Below are positions 9,867 to 36,473 of a DNA stretch of 64,000 nucleotides, in pieces (position 1 is the stretch's first letter; each line of letters opens with the position of its first letter). The notes below the pieces were generated by a model. The model had not been told where the DNA came from and made no database searches. It saw only the letters and a program-made list of their open reading frames with translations. A program made the translations under genes and the position numbers. Where the stretch lies: positions 1 through 64,000 of the forward strand of contig CAJXOU010000007.1 of the NCBI GenBank assembly GCA_913057645.1, given 5' to 3'. The DNA comes from an uncultured Rhodobiaceae bacterium (GTDB taxonomy: Bacteria; Pseudomonadota; Alphaproteobacteria; Parvibaculales; Parvibaculaceae).

Positions 9867-9956
<90 letters not shown>

Positions 9957-9984
9957 CGCTCTACCTAAGTCATTGGTAGCGCTG

Positions 9985-10043
9985 AAACTCGCAGAAATCC
10001 TGAGCTTCTGACTTCCCGATTGTTACACCGCAGTGTTACACCG
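9985..10043 (+). promoter_or_regulatory. Candidate integrase arm-type sites, left end
   Basis: AAACTCGCAGAAA at 9985-9997 has its exact reverse complement at 17273-17285 near the right junction. TGTTACACCG occurs twice, at 10021-10030 and 10034-10043, just before the integrase start, and TGTTACACC recurs at 17232-17240. Repeats of this kind close to both ends are expected for arm binding by tyrosine integrases. They also overlap the probable integrase promoter region, so autoregulation is possible. Confidence 0.5.
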
Positions 10044-10048
10044 GGAGC

Positions 10049-11830
10049 ATGGAAGAGTTGAGTAAGCACCCTAGGCTCGCACGTCGCGGGCAGGTCTATT
10101 GGTTTCGCGCAAAAGTCCCCGCTGATCTTCGGCTGCACTACGCGCCCAAGCAGGAAATCACCTTCAGTCTTCGCACGCGCGATCTGAAAGACGCGCTTGA
10201 GAAGGTGCGGGTTGAGGCGGTGAAACTCGATCAGGAGTTTGCGGTGGCGCGCCGTAAGCAAGCCGAGCAACCCCAGACAGCATTGAGCGACATAGAAATC
10301 GAGCGTCTGTCGGCCATCTATCTGCAACAGCTCTTGCAAGAGGACGAGGAAGTCCGCCGTGACGGTACAGGCGGGGACGCTGTCTACGTTGCGGCAAGGG
10401 ATCAACTTGAAGGAGCTGCCATCGCCGGTTTTGACGAGGCAGATTTGCAGAGCGACGTTGGCATGTCGGAGCGCGAATACGCGAAAGCGGGCGAAGCGCT
10501 CGATATAGTAGGGGAAGAGTTTAGAGCGGCATTGGCGCGCGGGCGCACCACGATTGTCGAGGAGGAGGTGGACGAGCTTCTGGCTTGGAACGGTGTCCGG
10601 CTCGACAAGCTCTCTGAGAGCTACCGAAAACTTTCCTCTGCTATCTTGAAGGCCAGCGTTACAGCCCACGGGATGCAGGCGCGTCGCCACCGAGGAGAGG
10701 TGGTCGATACACCGCGTGCACCAGCTCCATTCGGTAATCAAGGCGGTGCTTCGGCTGGCAAGGCAATCCGGTTCAGTGAGTTGTTCGAGAAGTGGAAGAA
10801 GTCACATCAAGGACCAACAAAGACCAAGGACGAGTTTGGAGTGCAGGTCCGGCGCTTCGTTGAGGTGAACGGTGACTTGGAGGTGCATGAAATCACGCCA
10901 GCACATGTGCGCGATTTCAAAGACGCCATGATCTTGATGCCCGTGCGGCTGGACAAGAGGCTGCGCGCGATGAGCGTGCCCCAAATCTTGGAGGCCACCA
11001 AAGACGCAAACATTGTGAGGCTGTCGCCGCGAACTGTCCGGGAGAAATCTGTTGCGGCCATACGTGCCGTTCTGGCCCGTGCAGTGGATGATGGAGACCG
11101 AGCCGACAATCCTGCCTCAGGGATTAGGGTTCCTGTGTCGAGCGAGCGACGGCGGCGGCCCACCTATCCCTTCACCATTGACGAGCTAAACAGGTTCTTC
11201 ACTTCCCCTGTGTTCACGCAGGGCCAGCGAACGCCCGGATGCGGTGGAGAGGCCGCTAGGTGGTTGCCCCTCCTTGCGCTCTTCACGGGTGCGCGTCTTG
11301 AGGAGCTTGCGCAACTTGAGGTCAGCGACGTCCGGGTTGAGGAAGGTGTTCAGTACATCTTCATCGGCGCAGACCCAGACTTGCAGCGAGTGAAGAACGA
11401 GCAGTCGCGCCGCAAGACACCACTTCACCCGGAGCTTAAGGCGCTAGGCTTTCTTGAGTACGTGGCGAGCGTGAAGAGCGCCGGGGAAGCGCGCCTGTTC
11501 CCGGAGGTGGTGTCGAAGGAGGAGAAGATTTCTGCGGCGTGGTCGAAATGGTTCGGGCGATATAGGAAAAGATGCGGGATCACCGAGAAAGGGAAGGTCT
11601 TTCATTCGTTCAGGCATAGCGCAAAACGCGCCATGCGCGAGGCTGGCATAGAGAAGCCCTTACGCGATGCGCTGATGGGGCACGCATATGACGACGAAGC
11701 TGACGAGTATGGATTGGACGAGGATGGTCTCGGCGTCTCGATGCGAACGCTCTACGAAGCCCTTAGCAAACTGCGCTATCCGCGACTTGATTTGACGCAT
11801 CTCTATCCGGGACGAGCGTTCGAAAACTGA
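10049..11830 (+). CDS. Tyrosine site-specific integrase
   Basis: 593 residues, longer than average. The N-terminus (RRGQVYWFRAKVPADLRLHY) matches the DUF6538-type head found on many alphaproteobacterial tRNA-island integrases. A SAM-like core-binding domain follows around residues 245-370 (SELFEKWKKSHQGPTKTKDEF). The catalytic domain shows Arg in GARLEELAQL, the HSFRHS box (His-x-x-Arg), His in MGHAY, and a candidate nucleophile Tyr in MRTLYEALSK. It lies immediately inside attL and reads inward, the usual position for the enzyme that inserts and excises such an element at tRNA-Ser. Confidence 0.95.
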   Translation: MEELSKHPRLARRGQVYWFRAKVPADLRLHYAPKQEITFSLRTRDLKDALEKVRVEAVKLDQEFAVARRKQAEQPQTALSDIEIERLSAIYLQQLLQEDEEVRRDGTGGDAVYVAARDQLEGAAIAGFDEADLQSDVGMSEREYAKAGEALDIVGEEFRAALARGRTTIVEEEVDELLAWNGVRLDKLSESYRKLSSAILKASVTAHGMQARRHRGEVVDTPRAPAPFGNQGGASAGKAIRFSELFEKWKKSHQGPTKTKDEFGVQVRRFVEVNGDLEVHEITPAHVRDFKDAMILMPVRLDKRLRAMSVPQILEATKDANIVRLSPRTVREKSVAAIRAVLARAVDDGDRADNPASGIRVPVSSERRRRPTYPFTIDELNRFFTSPVFTQGQRTPGCGGEAARWLPLLALFTGARLEELAQLEVSDVRVEEGVQYIFIGADPDLQRVKNEQSRRKTPLHPELKALGFLEYVASVKSAGEARLFPEVVSKEEKISAAWSKWFGRYRKRCGITEKGKVFHSFRHSAKRAMREAGIEKPLRDALMGHAYDDEADEYGLDEDGLGVSMRTLYEALSKLRYPRLDLTHLYPGRAFEN

Positions 11831-11888
11831 CGCAAAAATTTGAGAGGTCATACAGAAGGGTGATTGAGCGCGCTTCCCCCGTGGGTGG

Positions 11889-12746
11889 TCACGCAGCTGG
11901 GCGCGTCGCATCAAGTTCAGCTAACCATCGAAGGTAGGAGGCGGCTCCGCTCACGAGAGCAACCGTCAGGCCGATGGGAGGTTGCTGTGCTTCCTCAACT
12001 GCCTGTCCGTGTCGGTAGAAGTGTACGCCGTCCACCCAATCACACAGGCTTTGTGCAAGCTTGTTGGCTGCTTGACGGGCGGTTGCGTCGTCGCCATGCA
12101 TTTGTGCGATTGTAGGCAAGAGGTGTTGCCTGATCTCAGCGCTCCCCAACCGTTGTGCGTTAAACATGAGCTTGAACAGGATTTCGAGGGCTTCGAAAAC
12201 GTTTCGTAGGGCTTCCTTTGAGTTGGGGTTGTCGCGGTCAAGTGCCTCTTGTGCGCCTTCGAATGCGTGGCGGACAGCGCCGTAGCGGTCGTCTTCTAAG
12301 GCTCCGATGGCGGATACATAGTTGCGTTGGAATTCGTCATCGACCGCATAGTGAACGCCGCCTAGCTCGTCTAGCCGATAGTGAACGTGTTCTTCGCGAA
12401 AGATGCGGGCCACGTCCTGTCGCAGTTGCTCCACCCGTCTTGGGTCGTGCCGGACGTGTCCATCTCTGGTGCGCGCATCGAGATACATGGACATATGCGT
12501 TATTGCATCGAGGACGTCTCGTAGTTCGGCTGTATTGAAGAACCTGTCCCACGATATGCCGTAGCCCATGTAGGGAAGTTCGACACCTTGCTCCCTTTGC
12601 ACCAGACCAGCGTAATCGTCATCCAAAAAGTCTGAGAATAGATGGTAGATGCGCCGCCTCATACGCGCGCTATCGGCTTGGCGTTCTTCTCGCTTGATAT
12701 AGACGCGAGAGAACGGCAGACCGGATGGAACTTCGTTGTCACACAT
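11889..12746 (-). CDS. Hypothetical protein, helical, possible HEPN-like/Abi-related cargo
   Basis: 285 residues, no family recognised with certainty. The chain is mostly charged helices. A middle block SKEALRNVFEALEILFKL (about 178-195) and a C-terminal block WVDGVHFYRHGQ followed by a Pro-Pro stretch and SYLRWLAELD resemble alpha-helical proteins found beside abortive-infection genes. No clear R-x(4-6)-H RNase motif is seen. It is the only minus-strand gene in the element, convergent with the integrase and divergent from the serine recombinase across a 184-nt gap that carries a strong palindrome. It is probably cargo; a defence role is inferred from neighbours only. Confidence 0.6.
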   Translation of the reverse strand: MCDNEVPSGLPFSRVYIKREERQADSARMRRRIYHLFSDFLDDDYAGLVQREQGVELPYMGYGISWDRFFNTAELRDVLDAITHMSMYLDARTRDGHVRHDPRRVEQLRQDVARIFREEHVHYRLDELGGVHYAVDDEFQRNYVSAIGALEDDRYGAVRHAFEGAQEALDRDNPNSKEALRNVFEALEILFKLMFNAQRLGSAEIRQHLLPTIAQMHGDDATARQAANKLAQSLCDWVDGVHFYRHGQAVEEAQQPPIGLTVALVSGAASYLRWLAELDATRPAA

Positions 12747-12854
12747 GTTTCGATCCGGCCTTGTTTGTTCGTGTGAAGCAGTGTTCAGGAAACCCCCGCT
12801 TGCGACAAGGACGAAAGTTGAGGAAATCCGCAGGCGGCAGAGCGGTATCGAGAT

Positions 12855-12882
12855 CGTTCAAAAAACATTTGATTTTTGAACG
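12855..12882 (+). repeat. Palindromic site before the serine recombinase (Hin-like crossover or operator)
   Basis: Perfect 10-bp inverted repeat CGTTCAAAAA (12855-12864) / TTTTTGAACG (12873-12882) around an 8-nt centre. The inner 26 bp (12856-12881) have the size and TCAAAAA/TTTTTGA half-site character of Hin/Gin crossover sites. It lies 49 nt upstream of the serine recombinase start, so it may be the recombination site, an autoregulatory operator, or both. Confidence 0.55.
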
Positions 12883-12930
12883 TTCCTGTCGAAGTATCTG
12901 CCGCAGACGCATACAAATCGGGATGAACCA

Positions 12931-13521
12931 ATGAGCAAGCGGGCTGCGATCTATCTTCGGGTATCCACGGACGGCCAGACCACGGACAACCAGCGCCTTG
13001 AGCTAGTGCGAGTCGCAACCCAAGCAGGGTGGGACGTGGTCGAGGTATATGAGGACGCTGGGGTCTCGGGAGCGAAGGGACGCGACAAGCGCCCGGCGTT
13101 TGACCGTCTGTGCAAAGACGCGGCGCGTCGCCAGTTCGATGTCGTCATGGCGTGGTCAGTGGACCGGCTAGGGCGCAGCCTACAGGACCTTGTCGGCTTC
13201 CTGAGCGAGCTTCATGGAATGCGCGCGGACCTCTTCCTGCATCAACAGGGCATCGATACGACGACGCCCGCTGGCAAGGCCATGTTTCAGATGCTCGGCG
13301 TGTTCTCGGAGTTCGAGCGGTCGATGATCCAAGAGCGTGTGAAGGCCGGTCTGGCGCGCGCTAGAGCGCAGGGAAAGACGCTGGGCCGCCCGCGCATTGT
13401 CGATGATCGTCTTCGCCAGACGATTGCAAGCGCGCGTGCGGAGGGGCTGAGCGTTAGAAAAATCGCTACCCAAGTGGGAGCGTCGGTGGGGACGGTCCAA
13501 GGTGTTTTGAGGGGCGCTTGA
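12931..13521 (+). CDS. Serine recombinase (resolvase/invertase family)
   Basis: 196 residues, the usual size of small Tn3/Hin-type serine recombinases. The catalytic serine is Ser12 in YLRVSTDGQ. The conserved arginine region WSVDRLGRSLQDL lies near 75-87, and the E-helix block FSEFERSMIQERVKAGLARA near 128-147. The C-terminal 45 residues (GLSVRKIATQVGASVGTVQ) form a helix-turn-helix. Such enzymes resolve dimers or invert DNA between paired sites. An element that already has a tyrosine integrase would use it for dimer resolution or DNA switching. A candidate binding palindrome lies just upstream. Confidence 0.93.
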   Translation: MSKRAAIYLRVSTDGQTTDNQRLELVRVATQAGWDVVEVYEDAGVSGAKGRDKRPAFDRLCKDAARRQFDVVMAWSVDRLGRSLQDLVGFLSELHGMRADLFLHQQGIDTTTPAGKAMFQMLGVFSEFERSMIQERVKAGLARARAQGKTLGRPRIVDDRLRQTIASARAEGLSVRKIATQVGASVGTVQGVLRGA

Positions 13522-13665
13522 GCACCGCGTCCGAGTGCGTTGCGCTATTTGGCCGGAACGGCGAGCCTTTCCCGCGTAACGAAATGGCACGGCCGGTTCT
13601 AGTTGCACCTCAGTCTTGCCAAGAGGAGCATAGGCTTCGCGCGGGCCAAAGGAGATGCAGGCACA

Positions 13666-14433
13666 ATGTCTTTGAGCTTCGATGCTTCAAATCTGCCGGA
13701 TGCCCCGCTGGAGCGTGCTGTAATGCTCCAGAACATGATAATCGCCTTGTCGCAAAACGGCGGCTGGGATGAGGCTGTGTATCTTCAGCTCCGAAACGAG
13801 TTCATGGAGGGCGAAACGCGTAGCCTGTTGCCCTCCTTCGTCCGCACTTCTCGCGATCACGGGGCCTTGTGGGCACACCTCAAGAACGTCGCTACCGGTT
13901 CAGGATCGTGGGGAGTTCGACGCGCCCATATATACGAAGCATTCCAGCCGCTTCTCGATCATCTGGAGGGGCGCAACAAAGCTCCGGCCGATGCCGCCAT
14001 CTCCGAAGTTCTATCCTCCTTCGATCTTGAGGGCGTTCACCGGGCGTGGGAACGGGCGCTCAGTAGGCGAGATGAAGACCCAGAGAGTGCCATCACCGCA
14101 GCGCGCACGCTGCTGGAGACTGTCTGCAAGCGCATCTTGGATGAAGCTAAGCAGACATACGGGGACGATGATCTTCCGAAGCTCTATGGCAAGACGGCCA
14201 AGGTTCTGAACCTTTCCCCCTCTCAACATACTGAGGAAGTGTTCAGGGCGATCCTAGGCGGCTGTCATACCGTTGTGCAGAACCTTGGTACGCTCCGAAA
14301 CAGGCTTGGCGATGCTCATGGGCAAGGGCGGAACCCGGTACGACCGGCGCCACGTCACGCGACGTTGGCCGTCAACCTAGCCGGATCAATGGCGACGTTC
14401 TTGGTGGAAACTTGGAAGAGCCAGCAGGAGTAA
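13666..14433 (+). CDS. Abortive-infection family protein with Abi_C/HEPN-like domain
   Basis: 255 residues from ATG 13666, which has AAAGGAGA 10-15 nt upstream. The C-terminal half matches the abortive infection C-terminal (Abi_C) pattern: AARTLLETVCKRILDE near 145-160, DLPKLY near 169-174, ILGGCHTVVQNLGTLRN near 196-212, and LGDAHG followed by RPAPRHATLAVNLAGSMATFL. R211-x6-H218 (RNRLGDAH) fits the R-x(4-6)-H active-site motif of HEPN ribonucleases. The family includes phage-exclusion proteins that arrest the cell by RNA cleavage. Function here is inferred from family and location in a mobile element. Confidence 0.82.
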   Translation: MSLSFDASNLPDAPLERAVMLQNMIIALSQNGGWDEAVYLQLRNEFMEGETRSLLPSFVRTSRDHGALWAHLKNVATGSGSWGVRRAHIYEAFQPLLDHLEGRNKAPADAAISEVLSSFDLEGVHRAWERALSRRDEDPESAITAARTLLETVCKRILDEAKQTYGDDDLPKLYGKTAKVLNLSPSQHTEEVFRAILGGCHTVVQNLGTLRNRLGDAHGQGRNPVRPAPRHATLAVNLAGSMATFLVETWKSQQE

Positions 14434-14688
14434 TCCGACGGCGGTAGCCGGTCAATTTCCTTGCTACCAGTGCTCAATTCCAGCACCGCCTGATTTAGGT
14501 TGCTCTCTAGCTATATGGAACGGCCCTACTTGTGCCGCCGAGCGGCAACAGTTGGCGCTGCTTTGTGCGTGGGGGAGAAATCTATTTCCTCCTCCTCCCG
14601 CTATCTGGCACCGGCGCAGGCTCAAGGCGAGTTCCGCCCCAGCCGTTCCGCCTCCAGACACCTCACAATCACCTCCAGGAACACTTTC

Positions 14689-15741
14689 ATGAACACTGTC
14701 TCGGCCCTTCGGGGCAAGCAGAGCGTGGCGCTGCGCGCGCCGTCGCTCTCAACTCTCTTTGAAACGCCTTTCCCCCCTCGTGAACACATCATCGCTCCTT
14801 GGCTTCGTGCCGGGGAGAGCGCGATGGTATGGGCACCAACCGGTGTCGGCAAAACCATGTTCTCCCTTACGCTCGCTCTTGGGGTGGCCGGAGGGGGCAG
14901 CGTCTTCGGGTGGACCTTTCCACGCCCTCAGCGCGTGTTGATTGTCGATGGCGAGATGAACACGGCGGACCTCGTGGACCGCTCCAAGATGCTCTTGCAG
15001 ACCGTTGAGGGCATCAATGCGGAAGAGGCCGCACGGAACATCACCGTGATGGCACGGCAGTACCAAGACCCCGACGCGGAATTCCCCGACCTCGCTACCC
15101 CCGAAGGCCGCGATGAGGTTTTCGAGAGGGCGCGGACGGGCCGGTACGACCTTGTGATCCTCGATAACTTCTCCACCCTTGCCACCGTCGATGATGAGAA
15201 CGCGGCGGCGGCCATGAACCCCGTGCTCGCCTTTCTCATGCGCATGAAGCAGGCCAATATCGCGTGCCTCTTGGTGCATCATTCAGGGAAGTCTGAAGCA
15301 TCCTTCCGGGGCAGCTCCAAGCTCGCTACGACGTTCGAGGTCATCATCGGCTTGCACCGCATCCCCGGACAGGCGGCGCGTCACGGGACCGCTTTCAACA
15401 TTGTTTGGGACAAGTACCGGGGCAAGCGAGACGATGGCGTGAGGGGACGGCGTGCGGCACTTGAAGAGTGCTCTCGGGGTCACCTCCGATGGAACCATGA
15501 ACTTTCTACTGAGGAGGAATGCGACGACCTCGTGGAAGCGGTGAAGTCGCTCCGGTACGCTACACAAGAAGAGTTGGCCAAGGCTCTCGGCTGCTCCACA
15601 GGCAAATTATCCAAGCTCAAAGCTCGGGCCATTCACACGCTGCGGCTCGTTACGGAGGCCGACTGGGATGAGTGCTTGAAGGCTGCCCGCACGCTTCGTG
15701 ATGAAGACGTTGAAGGGCAAGACTTAGCGCCCGACTTCTAG
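14689..15741 (+). CDS. RepA/RecA-like AAA ATPase of the mobile element
   Basis: 350 residues from ATG 14689, which has AGGAA 9 nt upstream. Walker A APTGVGKT at 49-56, Walker B LVILDN at 155-160, then LLVHHSGKSEASFRGSSKL, the sensor/arginine region typical of the AAA_25 or RepA-like hexameric helicase group related to RSF1010 RepA. The C-terminus has a short helix-turn-helix-like ATQEELAKALGCSTGKLSKLKA. Such proteins are common on small integrated plasmid-like elements and suggest replication after excision. Two strong inverted repeats follow at once downstream. A pure regulatory or defence ATPase cannot be excluded. Confidence 0.85.
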   Translation: MNTVSALRGKQSVALRAPSLSTLFETPFPPREHIIAPWLRAGESAMVWAPTGVGKTMFSLTLALGVAGGGSVFGWTFPRPQRVLIVDGEMNTADLVDRSKMLLQTVEGINAEEAARNITVMARQYQDPDAEFPDLATPEGRDEVFERARTGRYDLVILDNFSTLATVDDENAAAAMNPVLAFLMRMKQANIACLLVHHSGKSEASFRGSSKLATTFEVIIGLHRIPGQAARHGTAFNIVWDKYRGKRDDGVRGRRAALEECSRGHLRWNHELSTEEECDDLVEAVKSLRYATQEELAKALGCSTGKLSKLKARAIHTLRLVTEADWDECLKAARTLRDEDVEGQDLAPDF

Positions 15742-15758
15742 GCACCTTCAGGGGTATC

Positions 15759-15780
15759 GGCAGGGGGGTTAACCCCTGCC
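15759..15780 (+). repeat. Inverted repeat 1 downstream of the RepA-like gene
   Basis: GGCAGGGG (15759-15766) and CCCCTGCC (15773-15780) are perfectly complementary around GGTTAA, 18 nt after the stop codon. No T-run follows, so it is a weak candidate for a terminator and may be a structural site. Confidence 0.6.
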
Positions 15781-15794
15781 TCATAGACAGAGGA

Positions 15795-15835
15795 TTTCAC
15801 GCTTCACTCTCTTCTCTAGGGGGTGAAGCGTGAAA
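15795..15835 (+). repeat. Inverted repeat 2 downstream of the RepA-like gene
   Basis: TTTCACGCTTCAC (15795-15807) and GTGAAGCGTGAAA (15823-15835) form a perfect 13-bp stem with a 15-nt loop; CGCTTTT follows. It may be a terminator of modest quality or, with repeat 1, part of a replication origin or transfer site. Confidence 0.6.
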
Positions 15836-15978
15836 CGCTTTTAGTCTCAACGGTTTAGAAGGCGGCTGGGACAGGTGCTTCACTTTACAGTTGAGCAGGG
15901 TTGAGCACAGGGAGTTGCAGGGGTGACTTGCTGGCCTCATCGTGAACCCGGCGTACCCGAAGCACATTGGAACAACAG

Positions 15979-17046
15979 ATGGCACTCCTGTCCGAGCGTG
16001 AACTTGTAGAGATTAGGGTGCGCGCTGAGGGCACCGATGCGGTCTCGCATTTTCGCGCGGAGATCGCAAAGTGCGAGAAATTGGGAGATGAGAAGGGCAG
16101 GTTAGCCAATCTGGAGCGGTTGCGGTTTGCCGAAGAGTATATTGCGCAGCAGGTCGCACTGAAGCGGCGGTTGGCTACCACCTTGCCGGATGACGGCGAT
16201 TTGTTTGGCGGCATCGCCAACGCATCGATCCAGTCTGATGAGTTCGATTTTGGCGGCGGTGTCGTTGCGCGGAAGACATATGCACATGTAATGGCACCGT
16301 TCTTGGCAGCTTTTGAACGTGCGCGTCCCGGCAGCTATCATCCCGGCCCGTTGAAGGCGGTAGGCGGAGGAATAGCTTTCGATGTGGAGCTTGAGATTGT
16401 AGTCCCTAGAAGCTCTCAGCCTACAGGATTTGACCGACTAAACACCATCTGGTGGCTTGCCGCCCTCCTCCGCATGCTTCATCCCTCGGGTTTGAGAGTG
16501 CCGGTAGTCGCTAACATGTCTTTCGCAGCTGTGGTGGGGGCGGACAGCGAGCCAAAGTTCTGGCCGGTTGAAATGACCGGGCGCGGTCTTCAGTTGCAGC
16601 CGTCTGCCGAACTGCCTGTCGAGGTGTTGGAATGGGTGGCGAAGCACTACGTGGGCGGTGAGCGGCTGATGCGGGATAGTGCGTTCTCACTAGCGTTTCA
16701 GGCGTTGGATGCGAGCTTGTTCGTGAGCCATCTCGGCTCCTCTAAGCTGCTCCTCTGGGCCGCGCTTGAAGCACTGTTCCGGCCCGGCCGCCACCGGACC
16801 ACGCACCGTTTGTCAGCAGCCATAGCCACCTATCTAGTAGCTAACCGCAGTGACCGGGACCGAGAGTACGACCGTGTAAAGAGGCTGTATGAAGCTCGCG
16901 GGCAGGTCACCCATGCGGCAGAGGTTCCAGACGTCGCGGATGTGGCAGCTGCCTTCCGTCTCGCTCAAGCGTGCTTCACCAAAGTGTTGGAGTTAGGACA
17001 AACACCGGACATCGATGCGCTTACTGCGAGTTGGAAGACAAGGTGA
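15979..17046 (+). CDS. Hypothetical protein with C-terminal HEPN/ApeA-like domain
   Basis: 355 residues from ATG 15979 (TTG at 15967 is also in frame). The first 70 residues are a charged helical region. A middle beta-rich region (about 85-220) has no recognised family. The C-terminal 110 residues are helical: SSKLLLWAALEALF near 254-267, RLSAAIATYLV near 277-287, then KRLYEARGQVTH. R307-x4-H312 fits the R-x(4-6)-H catalytic motif of HEPN RNases and resembles HEPN/ApeA-type proteins. It is the last gene of the tRNA-Ser element. A role in RNA cleavage during phage infection is inference. Confidence 0.7.
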   Translation: MALLSERELVEIRVRAEGTDAVSHFRAEIAKCEKLGDEKGRLANLERLRFAEEYIAQQVALKRRLATTLPDDGDLFGGIANASIQSDEFDFGGGVVARKTYAHVMAPFLAAFERARPGSYHPGPLKAVGGGIAFDVELEIVVPRSSQPTGFDRLNTIWWLAALLRMLHPSGLRVPVVANMSFAAVVGADSEPKFWPVEMTGRGLQLQPSAELPVEVLEWVAKHYVGGERLMRDSAFSLAFQALDASLFVSHLGSSKLLLWAALEALFRPGRHRTTHRLSAAIATYLVANRSDRDREYDRVKRLYEARGQVTHAAEVPDVADVAAAFRLAQACFTKVLELGQTPDIDALTASWKTR

Positions 17047-17397
17047 CGCTATTGTGCAGGCGCTGCCCTGCGACCCCACAGCGTTGGGTATAGCATCATG
17101 GTACAGAACGATCTTATCAGGCTTCAAATTCGGCAAAGGGCATCCGGGAGGCATTCATCGACGTGCAGCGGGCACTCTTCGCGCATTGACCACGTGCAGT
17201 CCTGTCTTCGCTTGTCGCCGTTACCCCAAGCTGTTACACCAGAGCTACCTAGGGAAGGCAAAAAGTCCAGATTTTCTGCGAGTTTGGGTGGTCCCTTCGA
17301 GTGTCCCACCCTCTCCGCCATAATCGCTTGACATGTTTCGGCTCAATACCGGACTTTGGCCCCCGATCGTGACGGAATGGCATGGGGGTGCCCGAAG
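17047..17397. other. Right end of the element and leader before the next gene
   Basis: No convincing gene. The stretch holds TGTTACACC (17232-17240) and TTTCTGCGAGTTT (17273-17285, inverse of 9985-9997), then attR at 17304-17320. Short open frames crossing attR have no ribosome site or familiar sequence. A TTGACA at 17328-17333 could be a -35 box for the downstream gene, but no good -10 is seen. Confidence 0.6.
17304..17320 (+). repeat. attR: second copy of the 17-bp tRNA-Ser end
   Basis: TCCCACCCTCTCCGCCA, identical to 9940-9956. The preceding TTCGAGTG resembles the tRNA T loop TTCGAA with a 2-nt length difference, so identity is confined to 17 bp. Confidence 0.9.
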
Positions 17398-17893: not shown

Positions 17894-18661
17894 ATGCAAA
17901 CGCAAAGCGTTGCAGTATCGCACGGCGCGCCCGAAGCCATTCATGTCGGCTCGTGGGCTGCAATTCTATGCGGGCCCGGCGGCACGGAGGAACGGCTTGG
18001 TTCCTGTGCTGAGGAAAAGGAGATCCCCGCGGGGCTTCGCCGTCGCCTCGGAACGCTTGGCCGCATGGGCGTTGCCTGCGGTCTCGGGGTCGCGCCGCAA
18101 GGCGATGCCGACATCGTTTTCTGTTCACGCCATGGCGACATTTCGCTCGCGCATCAGTTGCTGACGGCGCTGGTCGAAGGCGAGCCCATGTCGCCAGCGG
18201 GTTTTTCCATGTCTGTGCACAACGCGGTGCCGGGGGTGCTTGATCTTGCGCGCAAGGCTCGGATCGGTCACACCGCAATTGCGGCCGGTGCGCAGACGCT
18301 CTCGGCCGGTCTCGTCGAAGCCTGGCTCCGCCTTGCCGCGAGACCCCATCTCGATGTCGTCCTGGTATACGCGGAAACACCCTTGCCCGAATTCTACGAC
18401 CAGTTCACCGACGGCGATCTTGGCGGGACGGCGTTCGCGCTTCGTCTCTCGGCGCACAAGGGCGAGGGTGTCTGCTTTTCTCTCGGTTCGGACCGTGGCG
18501 AAACGCCATCGGATGTTCAGCCTCTCGATGCGCCGCATGCGGAGTTTCTTGCGCGTACAATCATCGAAATGTTACGCGGCCCTGCTTCCCGCGCAGAACT
18601 CCAGTGGCGGTCGCAGGGTTTCCTCTGGTCGCTGGGGAGTGCCGCCGATGCAACGTCTTGA
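17894..18661 (+). CDS. Beta-ketoacyl synthase-like chain length factor (aryl polyene, ApeC type)
   Basis: 255 residues with a GGAGGAAG ribosome site. This is the short ketoacyl-synthase N-terminal form (Ketoacyl-synt_2) that pairs with a full ketosynthase in aryl polyene systems and sets product length. Blocks seen are SPAGFSMSVHNAVPGVLDLA near 97-116, followed by AIAAGAQTLSAGLVEAWL and HLDVVLVYAETPLPE. The usual catalytic Cys is absent (the sequence around residue 130 is AIAAGAQT), as expected for a non-catalytic partner. The probable partner is the ketosynthase at 32791-34014. First gene of the operon; it overlaps the next gene by 14 nt. Confidence 0.88.
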   Translation: MQTQSVAVSHGAPEAIHVGSWAAILCGPGGTEERLGSCAEEKEIPAGLRRRLGTLGRMGVACGLGVAPQGDADIVFCSRHGDISLAHQLLTALVEGEPMSPAGFSMSVHNAVPGVLDLARKARIGHTAIAAGAQTLSAGLVEAWLRLAARPHLDVVLVYAETPLPEFYDQFTDGDLGGTAFALRLSAHKGEGVCFSLGSDRGETPSDVQPLDAPHAEFLARTIIEMLRGPASRAELQWRSQGFLWSLGSAADATS

Positions 18662-19451
18662 CTACGCCTGGCGTCTGTTCGGAACCGGTCTCTCTTTCGC
18701 CGCCTTCGGCATCGGCGGTCTTGTTCTCTCGCTGACGGTTTTCCCCCTTATCAATCTCTTCGTGCGAGATCGCAAGAAGCGCTCCGCATACGCGCAGCGG
18801 CTTGTGCATGGTGCGTTCAGGTTGCACCGCAATTTCATGATCGTCATGGGTGTCATCGAGTGGGAGACGCACAATGCCGAAGTGTTGGCGGGTGACGAGG
18901 GTGTCCTCGTCGTCGCGAACCATCCGACGCTGCTCGACGTCGTGCTTCTCATGTCGCTCATGAACCGCTCGCAATGCATCGTCAAGGGAGGCGTGGCGCG
19001 CAACCCCTTCATGCGCGGCGTCGTGGCGGCCACCGGCTATATCCGCAACGACGACGACCCGGAGAAACTGGTGACGGATTGCGTCGGTGCGCTGGAGGCC
19101 GGGAACAATCTCATCGTTTTCCCGGAGGGATCCCGGACGGTTCCCGGCGCGCCGGTCAGGCTGCAGCGCGGCGTTGCCAATATCGCGATCCGGGGCCGGG
19201 TTCCCATTCGTCTCGTAACCATAAAATGCGAGCCGCCGACCCTCATGAAGGGCCAGAAATGGTATGAGATTCCGCCCCGGCGCATGCATTTCACGATCAG
19301 GGTGCAGGGATTGGTTGAAACCGAACCTTATATAGGTGAATCTGCACCATCGATTGCCGCGAGGCGCCTGAACGGGGACCTTGCCGAGTGGCTGACGGGG
19401 GAAGTGGGGCATGGATCGGCTCGAGGATCGTATTCGGCGGCTCATTGTTGA
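18648..19451 (+). CDS. Lysophospholipid acyltransferase family protein (aryl polyene operon)
   Basis: 267 residues from ATG 18648. One N-terminal membrane segment (about 12-38), then the PlsC signature NHPTLLD (H-x4-D) near 89-95, FPEGSRT near 154-160 and VPIRLVTI near 179. It probably acylates the glycerol-type or lipid anchor to which the polyene is attached in the membrane. The open frame extends upstream in the ketosynthase-like gene, but homology begins at this ATG. The C-terminus overlaps the first ACP gene by 41 nt. Confidence 0.9.
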   Translation: MQRLDYAWRLFGTGLSFAAFGIGGLVLSLTVFPLINLFVRDRKKRSAYAQRLVHGAFRLHRNFMIVMGVIEWETHNAEVLAGDEGVLVVANHPTLLDVVLLMSLMNRSQCIVKGGVARNPFMRGVVAATGYIRNDDDPEKLVTDCVGALEAGNNLIVFPEGSRTVPGAPVRLQRGVANIAIRGRVPIRLVTIKCEPPTLMKGQKWYEIPPRRMHFTIRVQGLVETEPYIGESAPSIAARRLNGDLAEWLTGEVGHGSARGSYSAAHC

Positions 19452-19680
19452 AACGCTGAATCTGGAAGACATTTCGGCAGACGATATCGGCGAAGACGAA
19501 CAACTCTTCGGAGAAGGGCTTGGGCTGGATTCGATCGATGCGCTCGAAATCGGCATCGAAATCCAGAAGACCTTCGGAGTGAAGATCGACTCCAAGGACG
19601 AGAATCTTGCCAGCTATTTTTCAAGCGTCAGGGAACTGGCGCGTTTCGTGTCCCGGCAGCAGCAGGAGCAGGCGGTATGA
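19411..19680 (+). CDS. Acyl carrier protein 1 (aryl polyene, ApeE type)
   Basis: 89 residues, acidic, helical. The phosphopantetheine attachment site is Ser41 in GLGLDSIDALE. Two dedicated ACPs in tandem are a hallmark of aryl polyene clusters, one carrying the growing chain. The start lies inside the acyltransferase gene (41-nt overlap), and the stop overlaps the next ACP start by 4 nt, so translation is tightly coupled. Confidence 0.94.
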   Translation: MDRLEDRIRRLIVETLNLEDISADDIGEDEQLFGEGLGLDSIDALEIGIEIQKTFGVKIDSKDENLASYFSSVRELARFVSRQQQEQAV

Positions 19681-19928
19681 CCCGGGACGAAATCTATGAA
19701 ACGCTGAAAGGCTTTCTCGTCGAGCTCTTCGAAATTCCCGAGGAGCAGATTTCGCTCGACGCAAATCTCGCCGACGATCTCGATCTCGACAGCATAGACG
19801 CGGTCGATCTCATTCTCAAGTTGCAGGAGTTCATCGGCCGCAAGGTTTCGGCCGAGCAGTTCCGGTCGGTGCGGACGGTACGTGATGTCATCGACCAGGT
19901 TAATGAGCTTCTCGAACAGGCGGCCTGA
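19677..19928 (+). CDS. Acyl carrier protein 2 (aryl polyene, ApeF type)
   Basis: 83 residues. The attachment serine is Ser39 in DLDLDSIDAVDLI. Acidic residues around the site suit docking with the ketosynthase and ketoreductase. The start ATGA overlaps the ACP1 stop, and the 3' end overlaps the membrane protein gene by 26 nt. Confidence 0.94.
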   Translation: MTRDEIYETLKGFLVELFEIPEEQISLDANLADDLDLDSIDAVDLILKLQEFIGRKVSAEQFRSVRTVRDVIDQVNELLEQAA

Positions 19929-20484
19929 TTTCTGGGGCACCGCCGTCACCGGCGTGATGTTGCTTGTTCCGGTCGCAGCGGTGCTTGGGCTTCGCTTCGT
20001 GGGCCCCTGGCCGGTTGTCGTTCTTCTCCTTGTCTGTATTGCGGCGCGTCTTCTCGTGCCGCGCGCGATGCCGGTGCCGGTGACGATGACCGTTTGTCTC
20101 ATCGCCGTGGCGCTTGCCGTGCTTGCGGTCAGTTCCGTTTCGCCGGACCTTGCCGCGCGGCTCTACCCGGTCTTCATGAGCGCCACCATGCTTGTTGCCT
20201 TCGCCGCCACTCTCTGGAAGCCGCCCAGCATGATCGAGCGTTTCGCGCGCATCGCCGAACCGGATCTCGACGCGCGCGGTGTCGCCTATACGCGGCACGT
20301 TACGATGGTCTGGGTTGCCTTCTTCGCCTTGAACGGGCTCATCGCCCTATGGACGGTACTCGAAGGCGACCTTTTCTGGTGGGGCCTCTATAACGGCCTC
20401 ATCAGTTATCTCCTCGCGGGCAGCCTCTTTGCGGTCGAATTCCTTGTGCGCCAGCGCGTTCGCAGCAGGAGCGATCCGGCATGA
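19903..20484 (+). CDS. COG4648-type inner membrane protein of aryl polyene clusters
   Basis: 193 residues from ATG 19903. Four or five predicted membrane segments (GVMLLVPVAAVLGL, VVVLLLVCIAARLL, TVCLIAVALAVLAV, MLVAFAATLW, WVAFFALNGLIALW). The conserved block KPPSMIERFARI followed by YTRHVTMVW is the signature of the small membrane protein found beside ACPs in these clusters. Its biochemical role is unknown; a part in assembly or export at the inner membrane is likely from context. Confidence 0.87.
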   Translation: MSFSNRRPDFWGTAVTGVMLLVPVAAVLGLRFVGPWPVVVLLLVCIAARLLVPRAMPVPVTMTVCLIAVALAVLAVSSVSPDLAARLYPVFMSATMLVAFAATLWKPPSMIERFARIAEPDLDARGVAYTRHVTMVWVAFFALNGLIALWTVLEGDLFWWGLYNGLISYLLAGSLFAVEFLVRQRVRSRSDPA

Positions 20485-22133
20485 TGGAGGCGCTCTGGTC
20501 CTTCCTTTCAGGCGCGGAAAATTCCACGCCGGTCGCGTGCCGCGGTTCCCGTGATCTTTCCGCCGGTGCGCTTCGCGCCGCGGCGCTTTCGCTTGCAGAA
20601 GATTTGCGAAAGGACGAGGGCGCTGTCTTTCTCTATTGCGAGGATGCCGCGAATTTCACCGCTGGCCTCATTGGCGCGCTGATCTGCGGGCGCGACATTC
20701 TTCTTCCCGCGCATTCCGCGCCGGCCTATCTCGCCGAGATCGGTGCCAAGCGGCAGAACCTCGTGAGTGACCTTTCCACGCTCGACGGCATGCACGTCTC
20801 CGTCGCGGAAGACGGCGATGCCGGGGCCTTGCCCGCCATTCCCGATGGCCGCATCGGTTTCTTCACGTCCGGGACCTCCGGCGATCCAAAACTCTGCATG
20901 AAGGCGATGACGCAGCTTTCGGCGGAAGTCGCGGTCCTGGGGAACCTGTGGGGTACTCCGGCGGGTGCGGTCGTCGGCACCGTCTCGCACCAGCATATCT
21001 ACGGGCTGCTGTTTCGCGTCCTCTGGCCGCTCGCCTCGGGGTCGGTGTTTTTCTCCCGCATTCACGAAACCTGGGAGAGTGTTGCCGAAAGTATCGGCGA
21101 ACATGGCACCGTCATTTCCAGCCCCGCCCACCTCGGGCGGATTCCGCCCGAGGTAAGGTTGCGGCACAAGCCCGCCTTCATCTTCTCTTCCGGCGGGCCG
21201 CTCACGCCCCAAGCGGCGCAAGGTGCGCTGGCGCAATTCGGGTGCCTGCCGACGGAAGTCCTCGGCAGCACCGAAACCGGTGGTGTCGCGTGGCGCCGGC
21301 AGGTGGAGCCCGGAGAGGCATGGACACCGCTTCCGCGCGTCGAGGTGTCCGCGGATGCGGATGGTGCGCTCACCGTCCTGTCGCCCTTTACCGGGGCGTC
21401 CGTTCCGGTGCCGATGGGGGACGCCGTCGAATTCCTCGAAGACGGCCGCTTCCGCCTCAAGGGCCGGCTCGATCGTATCGTCAAGGTCGAGGGCAAGCGC
21501 GTCTCCCTGCCGCGGGTCGAGGAGGCTTTGCGCGCACTGCCTCAGGTCGAGGACGTGGCGGTAACCGATCTGCCGGATCGCGGCGGCGCGCTCGGCGCCA
21601 TCGTTGTGCTGACCGGTGAGGGGCAGGCCGCCCTGTCGGCGTGTGGATCGTTCAGATATTCGCGGGATTTTCGCGCCGCGCTTCGCCGTCGGCTCGAACC
21701 GATGGAACTTCCCCGTTTCTGGCGTTTCGTCGACGAGGTTCCGCAGAACAGTCAGGGCAAGAGAATTGCTTCCGTGATGCGTTCCCTGTTTCGATCACCG
21801 GAACTGCCGCAGATCGAGTCGGAAAATCGGGAGGGCGACAAGGTGGAGTTCGATCTCCTGCTCCAGCCGGACCTGCGCTGGTTCGAAGGGCACTTTCCGG
21901 ATCAGCCGATTCTTCCCGGCGTTGCGCAACTCCACATCGCGTCTGTTCTCGCCGAAAGGGTCTGGGGCATCGAGTTTCCGGGCCACGACATGTCCCGCGT
22001 CAAGTTCCGGCGTGTGATGCAGCCGGGAGAGCGCGTGTCGCTCTCGCTTGTTCGCCGCGAACGGCGGCTGGACTTCCAGTATGTGAGTGGCGGCGAAATC
22101 GTCGCGAGCGGCACGGTCAGGGGTCTTGAGTGA
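20481..22133 (+). CDS. Fused acyl-ACP ligase and 3-hydroxyacyl-ACP dehydratase (ApeH-ApeI type)
   Basis: 550 residues with two domains. Residues 1-440 are an AMP-forming adenylate ligase: FFTSGTSGDPK near 127-137 (phosphate loop), STETGG near 267-272, and the hinge GRLDRIVKVEGKRVSL. This would activate the aromatic starter acid and load it on an ACP. Residues about 455-550 are a hot-dog dehydratase with FEGHFPDQPILPGVAQLH, whose His is the FabA/FabZ-type catalytic residue. In the well-known E. coli-type cluster these activities are usually on separate proteins. Starts with ATG overlapping the previous stop by 4 nt. Confidence 0.9.
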   Translation: MMEALWSFLSGAENSTPVACRGSRDLSAGALRAAALSLAEDLRKDEGAVFLYCEDAANFTAGLIGALICGRDILLPAHSAPAYLAEIGAKRQNLVSDLSTLDGMHVSVAEDGDAGALPAIPDGRIGFFTSGTSGDPKLCMKAMTQLSAEVAVLGNLWGTPAGAVVGTVSHQHIYGLLFRVLWPLASGSVFFSRIHETWESVAESIGEHGTVISSPAHLGRIPPEVRLRHKPAFIFSSGGPLTPQAAQGALAQFGCLPTEVLGSTETGGVAWRRQVEPGEAWTPLPRVEVSADADGALTVLSPFTGASVPVPMGDAVEFLEDGRFRLKGRLDRIVKVEGKRVSLPRVEEALRALPQVEDVAVTDLPDRGGALGAIVVLTGEGQAALSACGSFRYSRDFRAALRRRLEPMELPRFWRFVDEVPQNSQGKRIASVMRSLFRSPELPQIESENREGDKVEFDLLLQPDLRWFEGHFPDQPILPGVAQLHIASVLAERVWGIEFPGHDMSRVKFRRVMQPGERVSLSLVRRERRLDFQYVSGGEIVASGTVRGLE

Positions 22134-23854
22134 CCGTCGATCCCTGCGCCATCGTGCCGACCTACAAGCATGCCGGTGCCTTGCGCGGCGTCGTGCGGAG
22201 ACTTGTGGAGGAAGGTCTGCCCGTCGTTGTCGTGGACGATGGCAACGTGCCGGAGATCGCCGGACAGATTTCGGAGATATGCGCGGATTTCGAAGGGGTT
22301 GAACTCCTGCGGCGCGATACCAATGGCGGCAAGGGTGCCGCCGTTCTCGATGGCATCGCCTGGGCGAACGCGCGTGGTTTCACCCATGCGCTCCAGGTGG
22401 ATGCGGATGGCCAGCACGACATCTCCCGCGTCGGCGATCTTTTGAAGCTTGCCGAGGCGCAACCCGAAGCCCTCATTACCGGTGAACCCGTTTACGACGC
22501 AACCATCCCGCGCAGCCGCCGCTTCGCGCGCTGGATCACGCATTTCTGGGTGGCGGTCAACACGCTCACCTTCCGCTACATCGACAGCATGTGCGGGTTT
22601 CGCGTCTACCCGGTCGCGACGGTGCTGCAGGTGGCGCGTGCACACCGCCTCGCGCAACGCATGGCCTTCGACACGGAAATACTGGTGCGCCTCGTCTGGC
22701 GAGGAACGAAAGTCGTCACATTCCCCGTCGCCGTGATCTATCCGCCGGGAAACCATTCCAATTTCGCGCTCTGGGACGACAATCTTCGTATTTCAGGCAT
22801 GCATGCGAAGCTCTTCTTCATCATGCTTGGACGGTTGCCGTTTCTCGTCTGGACGCGCCTGCGGCAGCCGAAGGAAAATTCATCCCGGCACTGGGCGCGT
22901 ATTTCGGAGCGCGGCAGCTATGCCGGATTGTGGATTCTCGGTGCGGTCTATCGCCTGTTCGGCCGCCGGGCCTGCATCGCCGCCGTTTCTCCGGTCGTTC
23001 TCTTCTTCTTTCTCACGGGTGGTGAGCAACGACGCGGTTCGCTTTCCTATCTTGCTCACGCTCATGAAGCGGGCCTGATCGCCGAACGGCCGGGCTGGCG
23101 GCTTTCCTTCCGTCACTTCATGGCATTCGCGTCTTCCGCAATCGACAAGCTTGCTGCGTGGACGGGAAACATTCCCGCGTCCGATGTCGAGGGTGTGGAT
23201 GAAGGCGATTTCGCTGCCGCCAAGGAAAGCGGCAAGGGCGCACTCGTCCTCACCGCGCATTTCGGCAATCCGGAAGTTCTGCGCGCCATCGCGACGCTTG
23301 GCGAGCGCTTCCGCGTCACGGTCCTTGTCCACACGGTTCATGCGGTGCGCTTCAACCGCCTGATCAACGAGTTCTCCGCCTCCTCCATCGTTCGCGTCGT
23401 GCAGGTGACCTCCGTCGGCCCGGACACGGCGATCCTGCTGCAAGAGGCGGTCGCGCGCGGCGAATGGGTCGTCATGGCGGGCGACCGTGTGCCCGTCAGC
23501 GGCAATGAACGGATAAGCTGGGCGCCCTTTCTGGGCGAGCCGGCCCCCTTTCCGCAGGGACCTCACATTCTGGCTGCCCTCCTCAAATGCCCGGTTTATC
23601 TCTTGTTCTGCCTGCGCGAAGGGACGCGCCACCGCGTTCATTTCGAGCGCATGGCGGAGCGGATCGAATTGCCGCGCAAGGACAGGGAAGGAGCACTTGC
23701 CGCCTCCGTCGCCGATTATGCCGGCCGTCTCGAAAGGCATTTGCGCGCGGCACCGCTACAATGGTTCAACTTTTTCGATTTCTGGCACCCGGCGGGGCTG
23801 AGACCACCCCCCGCAGCCGCGCTGCCACAGAGAGACAGGACAGGCGTTTCGTGA
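22130..23854 (+). CDS. Fused family 2 glycosyltransferase and lipid acyltransferase
   Basis: 574 residues. The N-terminal 240 residues are a GT2 enzyme: AIVPTYKHAG near 7-16, VVVDDGN near 34-40, NGGKGAAVLDGI near 66-77, and the DXD motif VDADGQHD near 90-97. Residues about 260-560 resemble the LpxL/HtrB-type acyltransferase group, with GALVLTAHFGNPEVLR near 374-389 supplying the H-x4-E/D-like site, and VMAGDRVPVSG. It probably builds and acylates the sugar-lipid carrier of the polyene. The start overlaps the previous stop (GTGA) and the end overlaps the ammonia lyase start (GTGA). Confidence 0.88.
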   Translation: MTVDPCAIVPTYKHAGALRGVVRRLVEEGLPVVVVDDGNVPEIAGQISEICADFEGVELLRRDTNGGKGAAVLDGIAWANARGFTHALQVDADGQHDISRVGDLLKLAEAQPEALITGEPVYDATIPRSRRFARWITHFWVAVNTLTFRYIDSMCGFRVYPVATVLQVARAHRLAQRMAFDTEILVRLVWRGTKVVTFPVAVIYPPGNHSNFALWDDNLRISGMHAKLFFIMLGRLPFLVWTRLRQPKENSSRHWARISERGSYAGLWILGAVYRLFGRRACIAAVSPVVLFFFLTGGEQRRGSLSYLAHAHEAGLIAERPGWRLSFRHFMAFASSAIDKLAAWTGNIPASDVEGVDEGDFAAAKESGKGALVLTAHFGNPEVLRAIATLGERFRVTVLVHTVHAVRFNRLINEFSASSIVRVVQVTSVGPDTAILLQEAVARGEWVVMAGDRVPVSGNERISWAPFLGEPAPFPQGPHILAALLKCPVYLLFCLREGTRHRVHFERMAERIELPRKDREGALAASVADYAGRLERHLRAAPLQWFNFFDFWHPAGLRPPPAAALPQRDRTGVS

Positions 23855-25404
23855 CAGGCGAAGTGATTTTCGGCGGGCGGGACCTCACCATCGAGGAGGT
23901 TTACGCCCTGGCCACGCGGAAGGCCTCGGCGCGGCTCAGCGACAATTCGGACTTTCGCGAAAGCATTGTCCGTTCGGCGGCGCATGTCGCGGAGACGCTC
24001 GCGCGCGACGGCGTCATCTATGGCGTGACGACGGGCTATGGCGATTCCGTCACGACACCCGTGCCGCTCGATCTGGTGCCTGAGCTGCCGCTCCATCTCA
24101 CGCGCTTTCATGGTGTCGGCATGGGCCGCTTTCTCACGCCGGAGGAAACACGCGCCGTCATGGCGTCGCGGCTTGCCTCGCTTGTGCGGGGCTGGTCGGG
24201 TGCGAGCTTCGAGCTTGTCGAGCTCCTGTGCGAGATGCTCCGGCTGGATATCCTGCCGCTCATTCCGGCGGAGGGCTCGGTCGGCGCTAGCGGCGATCTG
24301 ACACCGCTCAGTTATGTTGCGGGCGCGCTTGCGGGCGAGCGGCGCGTTCTTTTCAAGGACCGTGAAATGATGTCGGCCGAGGCTTTCGCTGAAGCCGGTC
24401 TGAAGCCCGTCGTCCTGCGCCCGAAGGAGGCCCTTGCCGTGATGAACGGCACGGCCGTCATGTCCGGCCTCGCTGCTATGGCCTTCATGCGCGGCACCAT
24501 TCTTTCGTCGCTCTCCACGCGCCTGACATCTCTCGCTTCGCTTGCGCTCCTCGGCAATCCGTCGCATTTCGACGAACGCCTTTCCGTGGCGAAGCCTCAC
24601 GCCGGTCAGACGAAGGTTGCCGCCCGCATCCGCAACGATCTTTCCGCCTTTGCCGCGCGCCATGCGCCTTCGCGTCTTCAGGACCGCTACTCGATCCGCT
24701 GCGCACCGCATGTGATCGGTGTCTTCGAAGACATGGCGCCCGTCTTCCGGGCGATGCTCGAAACAGAGATCAACAGCGCGAACGACAATCCGCTGATCGA
24801 CCCCGAAAGCGGCGATATCCTCCATGGCGGTCACTTCTATGGCGGTCACGTCGCCTTCGCGATGGATTCGTTGAAGAACCTCGTCGCAAACATCGCCGAC
24901 CTGATGGACAGGCAGATGGCGCTTCTTGTCGATACGCGCTTCAACAACGGCCTACCGTCCAATCTTTCCGGTGCGACGGGGCCGCGCGCCGCCGTCAATC
25001 ACGGCCTCAAGGCGTTGCAGATCGCGGCTTCGGCATGGACGGCGGAAGCGCTCAAGCTCACCATGCCGGCAAGTGTCTTTTCGCGCTCGACCGAGTGTCA
25101 CAATCAGGACAAGGTCTCGATGGGAACGATTGCGGCGCGCGACGCGCTGCGTGTGCTCGAACTCAGCGAACAGGTGGCAGCCGCGCTGACGGTTGCCGTG
25201 CGGCAGGCGCTCCGCCTCCGGATTGAAAGCGGTGCGCTCTCCAAGGCCGATATCGGGCCGTCGGCCTCCGCCTTCTTCATGGAGATTGAAGAGACGATTC
25301 CCTTCATCGAGGAAGACCGCCCGCTCGACGCGCTGCTCGGCGAGCTTTGCCACCGGACGGAGACCGGCATGTGGTCTCTCGACTGGCAGGAGGGGGCGGC
25401 ATGA
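23851..25404 (+). CDS. Aromatic amino acid ammonia lyase (HAL/PAL/TAL family)
   Basis: 517 residues from GTG 23851, which overlaps the upstream stop as GTGA. The MIO cofactor tripeptide is Ala146-Ser147-Gly148 in EGSVGASGDLTPLSYVAG, the catalytic Tyr is in GVTTGYGDSV (Tyr63), and NDNPLID and the FNNGLPSNLSG block are present. The selectivity pair, Ser-His in histidine lyases, reads Phe86-His87 (LTRFHGVG), so histidine is unlikely as substrate. In this operon it would convert phenylalanine or tyrosine to a cinnamate-type starter acid for the adjacent ligase. Exact substrate not decidable from sequence. Confidence 0.92.
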   Translation: MTGEVIFGGRDLTIEEVYALATRKASARLSDNSDFRESIVRSAAHVAETLARDGVIYGVTTGYGDSVTTPVPLDLVPELPLHLTRFHGVGMGRFLTPEETRAVMASRLASLVRGWSGASFELVELLCEMLRLDILPLIPAEGSVGASGDLTPLSYVAGALAGERRVLFKDREMMSAEAFAEAGLKPVVLRPKEALAVMNGTAVMSGLAAMAFMRGTILSSLSTRLTSLASLALLGNPSHFDERLSVAKPHAGQTKVAARIRNDLSAFAARHAPSRLQDRYSIRCAPHVIGVFEDMAPVFRAMLETEINSANDNPLIDPESGDILHGGHFYGGHVAFAMDSLKNLVANIADLMDRQMALLVDTRFNNGLPSNLSGATGPRAAVNHGLKALQIAASAWTAEALKLTMPASVFSRSTECHNQDKVSMGTIAARDALRVLELSEQVAAALTVAVRQALRLRIESGALSKADIGPSASAFFMEIEETIPFIEEDRPLDALLGELCHRTETGMWSLDWQEGAA

Positions 25405-25823
25405 AAGCCATCGTCACGGCCTCCGTTCCCTTCGATGTTCAGTTCTACGATCTCGATCCCATGAACATCGTCTGGCACGGCAATTATTCGAAGTATTTCG
25501 AACTCGGCCGCGTCGCGCTTCTCGGAAAAATTGGCTACGGCTATGGTGCCATGAAGGCGTCGGGATATGCTTGGCCGGTCATCGACATGCATATCCGCTA
25601 CTACAGGACGCTGGAACTCGGACAGCGGGCGGAAGTTCAGGCAAGTGTCGTTGAATGGGAGAACCGCCTCAAAATCGACTATCTGATCGTGGATCCTGCA
25701 ACGGGGCGCAAGGTGACGCGCGGACATACCGTTCATGTCGCGCTCGACATAGAGACAAAGGAAATGCAATGGGAAACGCCGCCCATCCTGCGCGAGAAGC
25801 TTGCTCCGTGGCTCGGATCGTGA
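25401..25823 (+). CDS. Acyl thioesterase, hot-dog 4HBT type (ApeK-like)
   Basis: 140 residues. The 4-hydroxybenzoyl-CoA thioesterase/YbgC signature is clear: VQFYDLDPMNIVWHGNYSKYFE with the catalytic Asp near 17. It would release stalled or finished acyl chains from ACP. ATG 25401 overlaps the lyase stop by 4 nt. The hot-dog fold without FabZ-type His distinguishes it from the dehydratases in the cluster. Confidence 0.9.
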   Translation: MKAIVTASVPFDVQFYDLDPMNIVWHGNYSKYFELGRVALLGKIGYGYGAMKASGYAWPVIDMHIRYYRTLELGQRAEVQASVVEWENRLKIDYLIVDPATGRKVTRGHTVHVALDIETKEMQWETPPILREKLAPWLGS

Positions 25824-31575: not shown

Positions 31576-31580
31576 CCCCC

Positions 31581-36468: not shown

Positions 36469-36473
36469 GGACC

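Follow-up and report, generated by a model that had tools for sequence, protein, structure and literature searches.

In HEPN proteins, of which AbiJ forms one family, an R-x(4-6)-H motif whose arginine is followed by a polar residue is predicted to be an RNase active site (Anantharaman et al., 2013; PMC3710099). PrrC-like guarding has been proposed for HEPN clades linked to restriction-modification (R-M) systems, of which there are at least 16 (Anantharaman et al., 2013; PMC3710099), and ApeA is found embedded in R-M loci of epsilonproteobacteria (PMC3710099). In E. coli, integrase-only islands are carriers of defence genes (PMC10121019). Here we describe a small integrated island in a 64,000-nucleotide stretch of contig CAJXOU010000007.1 (positions 1 to 64,000, hereafter the window) from an uncultured Rhodobiaceae bacterium, whose cargo includes a 285-residue protein (11889–12746, reverse strand), a 255-residue Abi_C protein (13666–14433, forward strand) and a 355-residue protein (15979–17046, forward strand). 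From what is known of the families and from the gene neighbours of their relatives, we consider it probable that these are three independent abortive-infection-type proteins, for which defence is the best explanation. A preliminary description of the same DNA, made from the sequence alone, had proposed a defence module of two HEPN-motif proteins and one unrecognised helical protein; all three open reading frames (ORFs) and both motifs, R211-x6-H218 in the Abi_C protein and R307-x4-H312 in the 355-residue protein, lie where it had placed them.

The 355-residue protein and its relatives

Alignment and an AlphaFold2 model divide the 355-residue protein (start ATG 15979) into an N-terminal helical hairpin (residues 1–70), a β-rich domain (residues ~73–200) and a HEPN-like bundle (residues ~214–340). 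Pfam, NCBIfam and PADLOC gave no match for the protein or its relatives, and PHROG 28161, of unassigned function, matches residues 140–318 (1.2e-18). PDB sequence searches with the window proteins returned designed helical proteins and chance matches only. Relatives were found at about 30 loci, comprising one plasmid, one sampled genome (in which the relative sits on the same contig as locus L034), 28 genome contigs and one viral contig. The viral relative came from an alignment-based scan; single-protein scans of viral contigs found no relatives of any of the three proteins, and tblastn of the 355-residue protein in phages found no matches. The relatives span about seven phyla (Pseudomonadota, Planctomycetota, Bacteroidota, Spirochaetota, Gemmatimonadota, Neomarinimicrobiota and one metagenome-assembled genome labelled Deltaproteobacteria), and are 24–37% identical to the window protein over a shared part that begins near residue 73. 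Eleven of the 284 shared columns are invariant in 29 homologues: Gly94, Arg165, Trp219, Trp260, Glu264, Phe267, Arg293, Tyr304, Arg307, His312, and Pro343. The N-terminal ~70 residues (15979–16188) are absent from all aligned relatives. A mis-called start was considered for this extension and ruled out: its codon-position composition is like that of the rest of the gene, and unlike that of the in-frame DNA upstream.

A bare R-x(4-6)-H string carries no evidential weight without an alignment of homologues, because almost every protein of similar size would contain one by chance. Shuffled versions of the 285-residue, Abi_C and 355-residue proteins contain on average 3.7, 2.1, and 2.3 matches, respectively, and 89–98% of the shuffles contain at least one. 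The argument from the motif alone, as made in the preliminary description, is thus not evidence, with two to four matches per protein arising from shuffling. What exceeds chance is the conservation of Arg307/His312 (codons 16897–16899 and 16912–16914) and of Arg211/His218 in the Abi_C protein across homologues; none of the remaining four R-x(4,6)-H strings of the 355-residue protein is an invariant pair. Upstream of Arg307 there is an invariant acidic residue, Glu264, followed by Phe267; in many HEPN families such an acidic residue belongs to an Ex3[KR] motif, which is not formed in the window protein.

The AlphaFold2 model of the 355-residue protein, built from 28 sequences (the window protein and the fetched loci, with L003 left out), has a mean pLDDT of 88 and a pTM of 0.84, and consists of a helical hairpin (6–68), a β-rich domain (75–196), and six helices (214–353). 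Glu264 lies within the helix formed by residues 252–267, and Arg307 and His312 lie where a long helix (290–313) ends. In hhalign comparisons, the C-terminal domain of the family aligned with the C-terminal domain of the protein at locus L002 (motif RSKLVHG; 3e-10), which looks HEPN-like but itself has no Pfam name, and comparison of the family with the AbiJ_NTD4 alignment gave no signal. The invariant arginine, histidine and glutamate, together with the profile similarity to the L002 domain, suggest that the C-terminal domain is probably HEPN-like. This agrees with the original assignment of such a domain around R307-x4-H312, the two residues being invariant and the modelled fold a helical bundle.

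Relatives of the 355-residue protein occur among defence genes, with R-M, TIR, and SIR2 neighbours. In three Burkholderiaceae loci (L025, L027, and L028, from Paraburkholderia sp. C35, Burkholderia sp. Ac-20379, and Paraburkholderia phenazinium), hsdR (ResIII, HSDR_N), hsdM (N6_Mtase), and hsdS (Methylase_S) are followed, in the same direction, by the 355-family gene, with gaps of 20, 55, and 67 bp to its start. Genes for TIR proteins adjoin the family gene in L014 and L036; further neighbours are an N6_N4 methylase (L013), an AAA_16/nSTAND1 ATPase (L026), an AAA_13 ATPase (L036), and a protein with a HEPN_RiboL-PSP match (L019). L003 has an integrase gene upstream and a SIR2 gene downstream of the family gene.

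The hsdRMS arrangement bears on a reading in which the 355-residue protein would be a PrrC-type guard RNase, restrained by type I R-M complexes until a phage disables restriction and so frees it, the window copy having become detached and guarding either the host's chromosomal R-M system or some other target. The position as fourth gene of an hsdRMS operon, with short gaps in three Burkholderiaceae genomes, is consistent with this proposal, as is the precedent of PrrC, whose gene lies within hsdMSR and whose activity that system inhibits (PMC3710099). However, the arrangement occurs in 3 of the 28 loci, all from one bacterial family and maybe reflecting one inheritance event, and R-M genes are absent from the window's island; we therefore regard a guard function of this type as unlikely.

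At L003 (7977–13594) we also observed the 355-family gene, a PIN-like 301-residue ORF (recognised by eye, with no Pfam match), and the SIR2 gene in this order, which is possibly a multi-gene defence operon. The integrase upstream of it is distantly similar to that of the window (28.6% identity).

The Abi_C and 285-residue proteins

The ORF of the Abi_C protein starts at ATG 13666, 5′ of which lies a ribosome-binding site (AAAGGAGATG), with Arg211 encoded at 14296–14298 and His218 at 14317–14319. The protein matches Pfam Abi_C (5.8e-23; 81.2 bits, with a curated cut-off of 24) and PADLOC AbiJ (3.8e-21), and PHROG 23253 covers it over its full length (2.6e-75). Arg211, Asn212, Asp216, and His218 are invariant in the aligned homologues, which range from Paenibacillus to an E. 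coli record, and the C-terminal half aligns with the HEPN domain of AbiJ_NTD4 proteins by hhalign (E 1.4e-8) with the RN..H motifs in register. The Pfam match, the conservation and this alignment together bear out its earlier description as a HEPN-type abortive-infection protein. A tblastn search with the protein matched 226 plasmid records, 15 of which match over 80% or more of the query, at 44–73% identity. Full-length homologues (PHROG 23253) in bacteria as far apart as Alphaproteobacteria and Paenibacillus share the N-terminal domain. Judged by these matches, the protein is an ordinary representative of an established family, with a conserved but unnamed N-terminal domain. A literature search on PF14355 and AbiJ NTD4 did not find a functional study of these exact families. 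On a Sinorhizobium fredii plasmid (L072, 5233–6771), an Abi_C homologue adjoins a serine recombinase gene as it does in the window, although the two are divergent there.

The 285-residue protein, described as unrecognised in the preliminary account, comprises an AbiJ_NTD4-like N-terminal domain and a C-terminal helical, HEPN-like domain, as indicated by PADLOC, hhalign and AlphaFold2. Taken singly, it matches PADLOC PDC-S32 weakly (6.2e-5) and Pfam AbiJ_NTD4 (PF18863) at 0.077 (13.9 bits, below the cut-off of 34). Full-length relatives are rare: one was found in 398 sampled Pseudomonadota genomes and three more in 200 genomes of the family of that first relative. These proteins (L050 and L069–L071) come from other genera and are 28–42% identical; the protein gave no plasmid matches. 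Three of the five family members match AbiJ_NTD4, at best with 2.1e-5, and the family profile is collinear with AbiJ_NTD4-HEPN proteins over 225 columns by hhalign (E 1.2e-4, probability 55%); against Abi_C the same family gave no hhalign signal. The AlphaFold2 model has a pLDDT of 80 and a pTM of 0.57.

No conserved arginine precedes His242 or His246 by four to six residues in the 285-residue family. Conserved instead is W237-[IV]-x-x-x-H242-x2-R245-H246, and a GGVH..D.EF motif is also retained in the homologues; the reading frame is intact. In the model, His242, Arg245, and His246 are positioned at the end of a long helix (221–246) ahead of the last helix, which is the place that the canonical motif occupies in the model of the 355-residue protein. 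Other HEPN families with alternative histidines exist (PMC3710099). By these profile and motif comparisons, the 285-residue protein is a distant AbiJ_NTD4-type relative without the canonical motif.

The island and its cargo

A tRNA-Ser(CGA) gene (9867–9956, forward strand; ARAGORN) hosts the 7,364-bp island (9957–17320), which restores the 3′ end of the tRNA gene. The last 17 bases of the tRNA form the left att copy (9940–9956, TCCCACCCTCTCCGCCA, forward strand), and an exact direct repeat of these 17 bp, 7,364 bp away, forms the right copy (17304–17320, forward strand). In the congener G024, matches to the left and right island flanks are adjacent and overlap by exactly 17 bp, and the 3′ end of tRNA-Ser(CGA) continues directly into the right flank; G024 therefore carries the empty site of the island. 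The island is thus an integrative element with an unoccupied site in a sister species, and the mobile element of the preliminary description is real. The whole island is present in none of 26 congeners. We saw neither phage structural genes nor a relaxase among its genes, and therefore call it an integrase-only mobile element.

Besides the three proteins, the island encodes, all on the forward strand, a tyrosine integrase of 593 residues (10049–11830; Pfam DUF6538 and Phage_integrase, 5.8e-18 and 3.1e-12), a serine resolvase/invertase of 196 residues (12931–13521; Pfam Resolvase, 3.6e-46), and an AAA_25 (RepA-like) ATPase with a C-terminal helix-turn-helix (14689–15741; Pfam AAA_25, 1.5e-31). 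The probable start of the ATPase is ATG 14689, because the stretch upstream is non-coding by codon-position GC content. The resolvase alone recurs among the congeners, in two of them at 75–77% DNA identity; these copies (G014 and G026; L079 and L080) are 84% identical to the island's resolvase at the protein level and the rest of the island is absent from both genomes. Since two congeners have the resolvase without the rest of the island, it may have been exchanged between different elements.

A single three-gene defence system was considered and ruled out, as no two of the 285-residue, Abi_C and 355-residue families occur together at any locus of the relatives. Nor do the genes form an operon: the 285-residue gene lies on the opposite strand, and the resolvase and ATPase genes intervene. 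Because the families do not co-occur and there is no operon, the three genes look like independent single-gene cargo, and the "module" proposed earlier does not stand.

For the island proteins we infer RNase activity, sensing and phage protection along the following lines. In the Abi_C and 355-residue proteins, the variable N-terminal domain would sense some feature of phage infection, which would release or assemble the C-terminal HEPN domain; this domain would dimerise and cut RNA by means of its arginine–histidine pair, halting translation such that the infected cell yields no phage. The 285-residue protein would follow the same two-part plan, with an AbiJ_NTD4-like sensor and a HEPN-like bundle from which R-x(4-6)-H has been lost, and would either use His242/Arg245/His246 at the matching place or simply bind RNA.

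Several results weigh against this defence reading. Foldseek searches with the 355-residue model against PDB and BFVD, and with the 285-residue model against PDB, returned nothing at E ≤ 0.001, and none of the 29 homologues in the 355-residue family matches a named HEPN profile in Pfam. The island holds neither an R-M system nor any other classified defence system. Although a defence-type gene lies within three genes of the family gene in about 10 of the 28 loci of the 355-residue family, this is a raw count without a control set, and many loci have housekeeping neighbours.

The location of the genes in a small mobile island, and the frequency of HEPN toxins in toxin–antitoxin pairs, would also suit proteins that act as toxins stabilising the element, either by addiction or by competing with other mobile elements, while giving little or no phage protection. 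We consider this decidedly unlikely: none of the three genes is adjoined by a nucleotidyltransferase gene or any other small gene resembling an antitoxin, defence genes surround relatives, and Abi_C is treated as a defence family in surveys (PMC10121019).

The Foldseek and Pfam results bear more directly on whether the C-terminal bundle of the 355-residue protein is a HEPN RNase at all, as opposed to a structural or RNA-binding bundle in which Arg307 and His312 play a structural role. Structure prediction, a check proposed in the preliminary description, gave a confident helical bundle with Glu264, Arg307, and His312 well placed, but the Foldseek search did not match the bundle to a solved HEPN structure. 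Against a non-HEPN bundle stand the invariance of Arg307 and His312 at 24–37% identity and an invariant acidic residue upstream, as described for HEPN proteins. The form LYxxRSxxxHG is, moreover, typical of many HEPN proteins. A purely structural or RNA-binding role is accordingly improbable. Least probable is that the 285-residue protein is the functionless product of a decayed AbiJ-type gene, as the missing canonical motif could suggest, given the intact frame and the conservation of its H..RH and GGVH..D.EF residues at 28–42% identity in other genera.

Elsewhere in the window, the region to the right of the att site (~18240–34014) has, as read from its ORFs alone, the appearance of an aryl polyene type gene cluster, with a tandem pair of acyl carrier proteins, an AMP ligase, a glycosyltransferase–acyltransferase fusion, an aromatic amino acid ammonia-lyase, a thioesterase, and a ketoacyl synthase. 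Further on, in a low-GC stretch, a 301-residue ORF (35563–36468) ends in a deaminase-like HAE...C-x2-C motif (by eye, with no Pfam match) and is followed by an ORF matching the immunity protein Imm1 (36456–36950; 2.1e-4), a pair that looks like a polymorphic toxin and its immunity protein (35563–36950).

Comparison with known systems

The analysis provides an alignable family for a group outside Pfam, NCBIfam and PADLOC, with about 30 members in about seven phyla, an invariant set of arginine, glutamate and histidine residues and a confident model, and places it beside R-M, TIR, and SIR2 genes. The choice of the 355-residue protein as the best candidate for something new is upheld. An extended reading, which we offer tentatively and hold to be doubtful, is that the 355-residue family is an undescribed kind of HEPN effector with a small β-rich sensor: in some bacteria it would act as the fourth subunit of type I R-M systems (hsdRMS plus HEPN), and elsewhere it would have become a free-standing phage sensor, including in the island, where an N-terminal hairpin has been added; the 285-residue family would in turn be of AbiJ type with a relocated H..RH active site. 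If true, this would add a HEPN effector class with a new β-rich sensor domain.

Among described proteins, ApeA (HEPN_Apea, PF18739, plus ApeA-NTD1) resembles the 355-residue protein in that a β-rich N-terminal part precedes a HEPN-like domain carrying R-x4-H, and in the R-M operon setting of some relatives. None of 29 family members matches PF18739 or ApeA-NTD1 at E 0.5; a HEPN_Apea profile search of 110 genomes and controls gave no matches, so that the comparison draws on Pfam absence only. The β-rich domain of the 355-residue protein is ~130 residues, in contrast to ~300 residues in ApeA, and the family has a conserved W260-x3-E264-x2-F267 core and an H-P-x-P-W signature.

The Abi_C protein shares with the Abi_C/AbiJ family (PF14355; PADLOC AbiJ) its C-terminal R-N-x4-D-x-H-G motif and mobile-element setting, but its N-terminal domain matches no Pfam family. 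The 285-residue protein appears collinear with AbiJ_NTD4 proteins (PF18863; PDC-S32) over NTD4 and the C-terminal bundle, whereas its HEPN motif is replaced by W-[IV]-[DH]-[GS]-[AV]-H-x2-R-H.

With PrrC and the R-M-linked HEPN guard RNases, the 355-residue family has in common that some of its members are encoded by the fourth gene after hsdR-hsdM-hsdS. Unlike PrrC, the family has no ABC ATPase domain (no Pfam match, and a β-rich domain in the model), and the 355-residue gene of the window is not linked to R-M. The hsdRMS-HEPN arrangement, if real, would offer a way of asking the PrrC question, i.e. how failure of restriction triggers an RNase, without an ABC ATPase. The island itself is of the same sort as the E. 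coli integrase-only islands that carry defence genes (PMC10121019), and for the field at large would represent one more such carrier.

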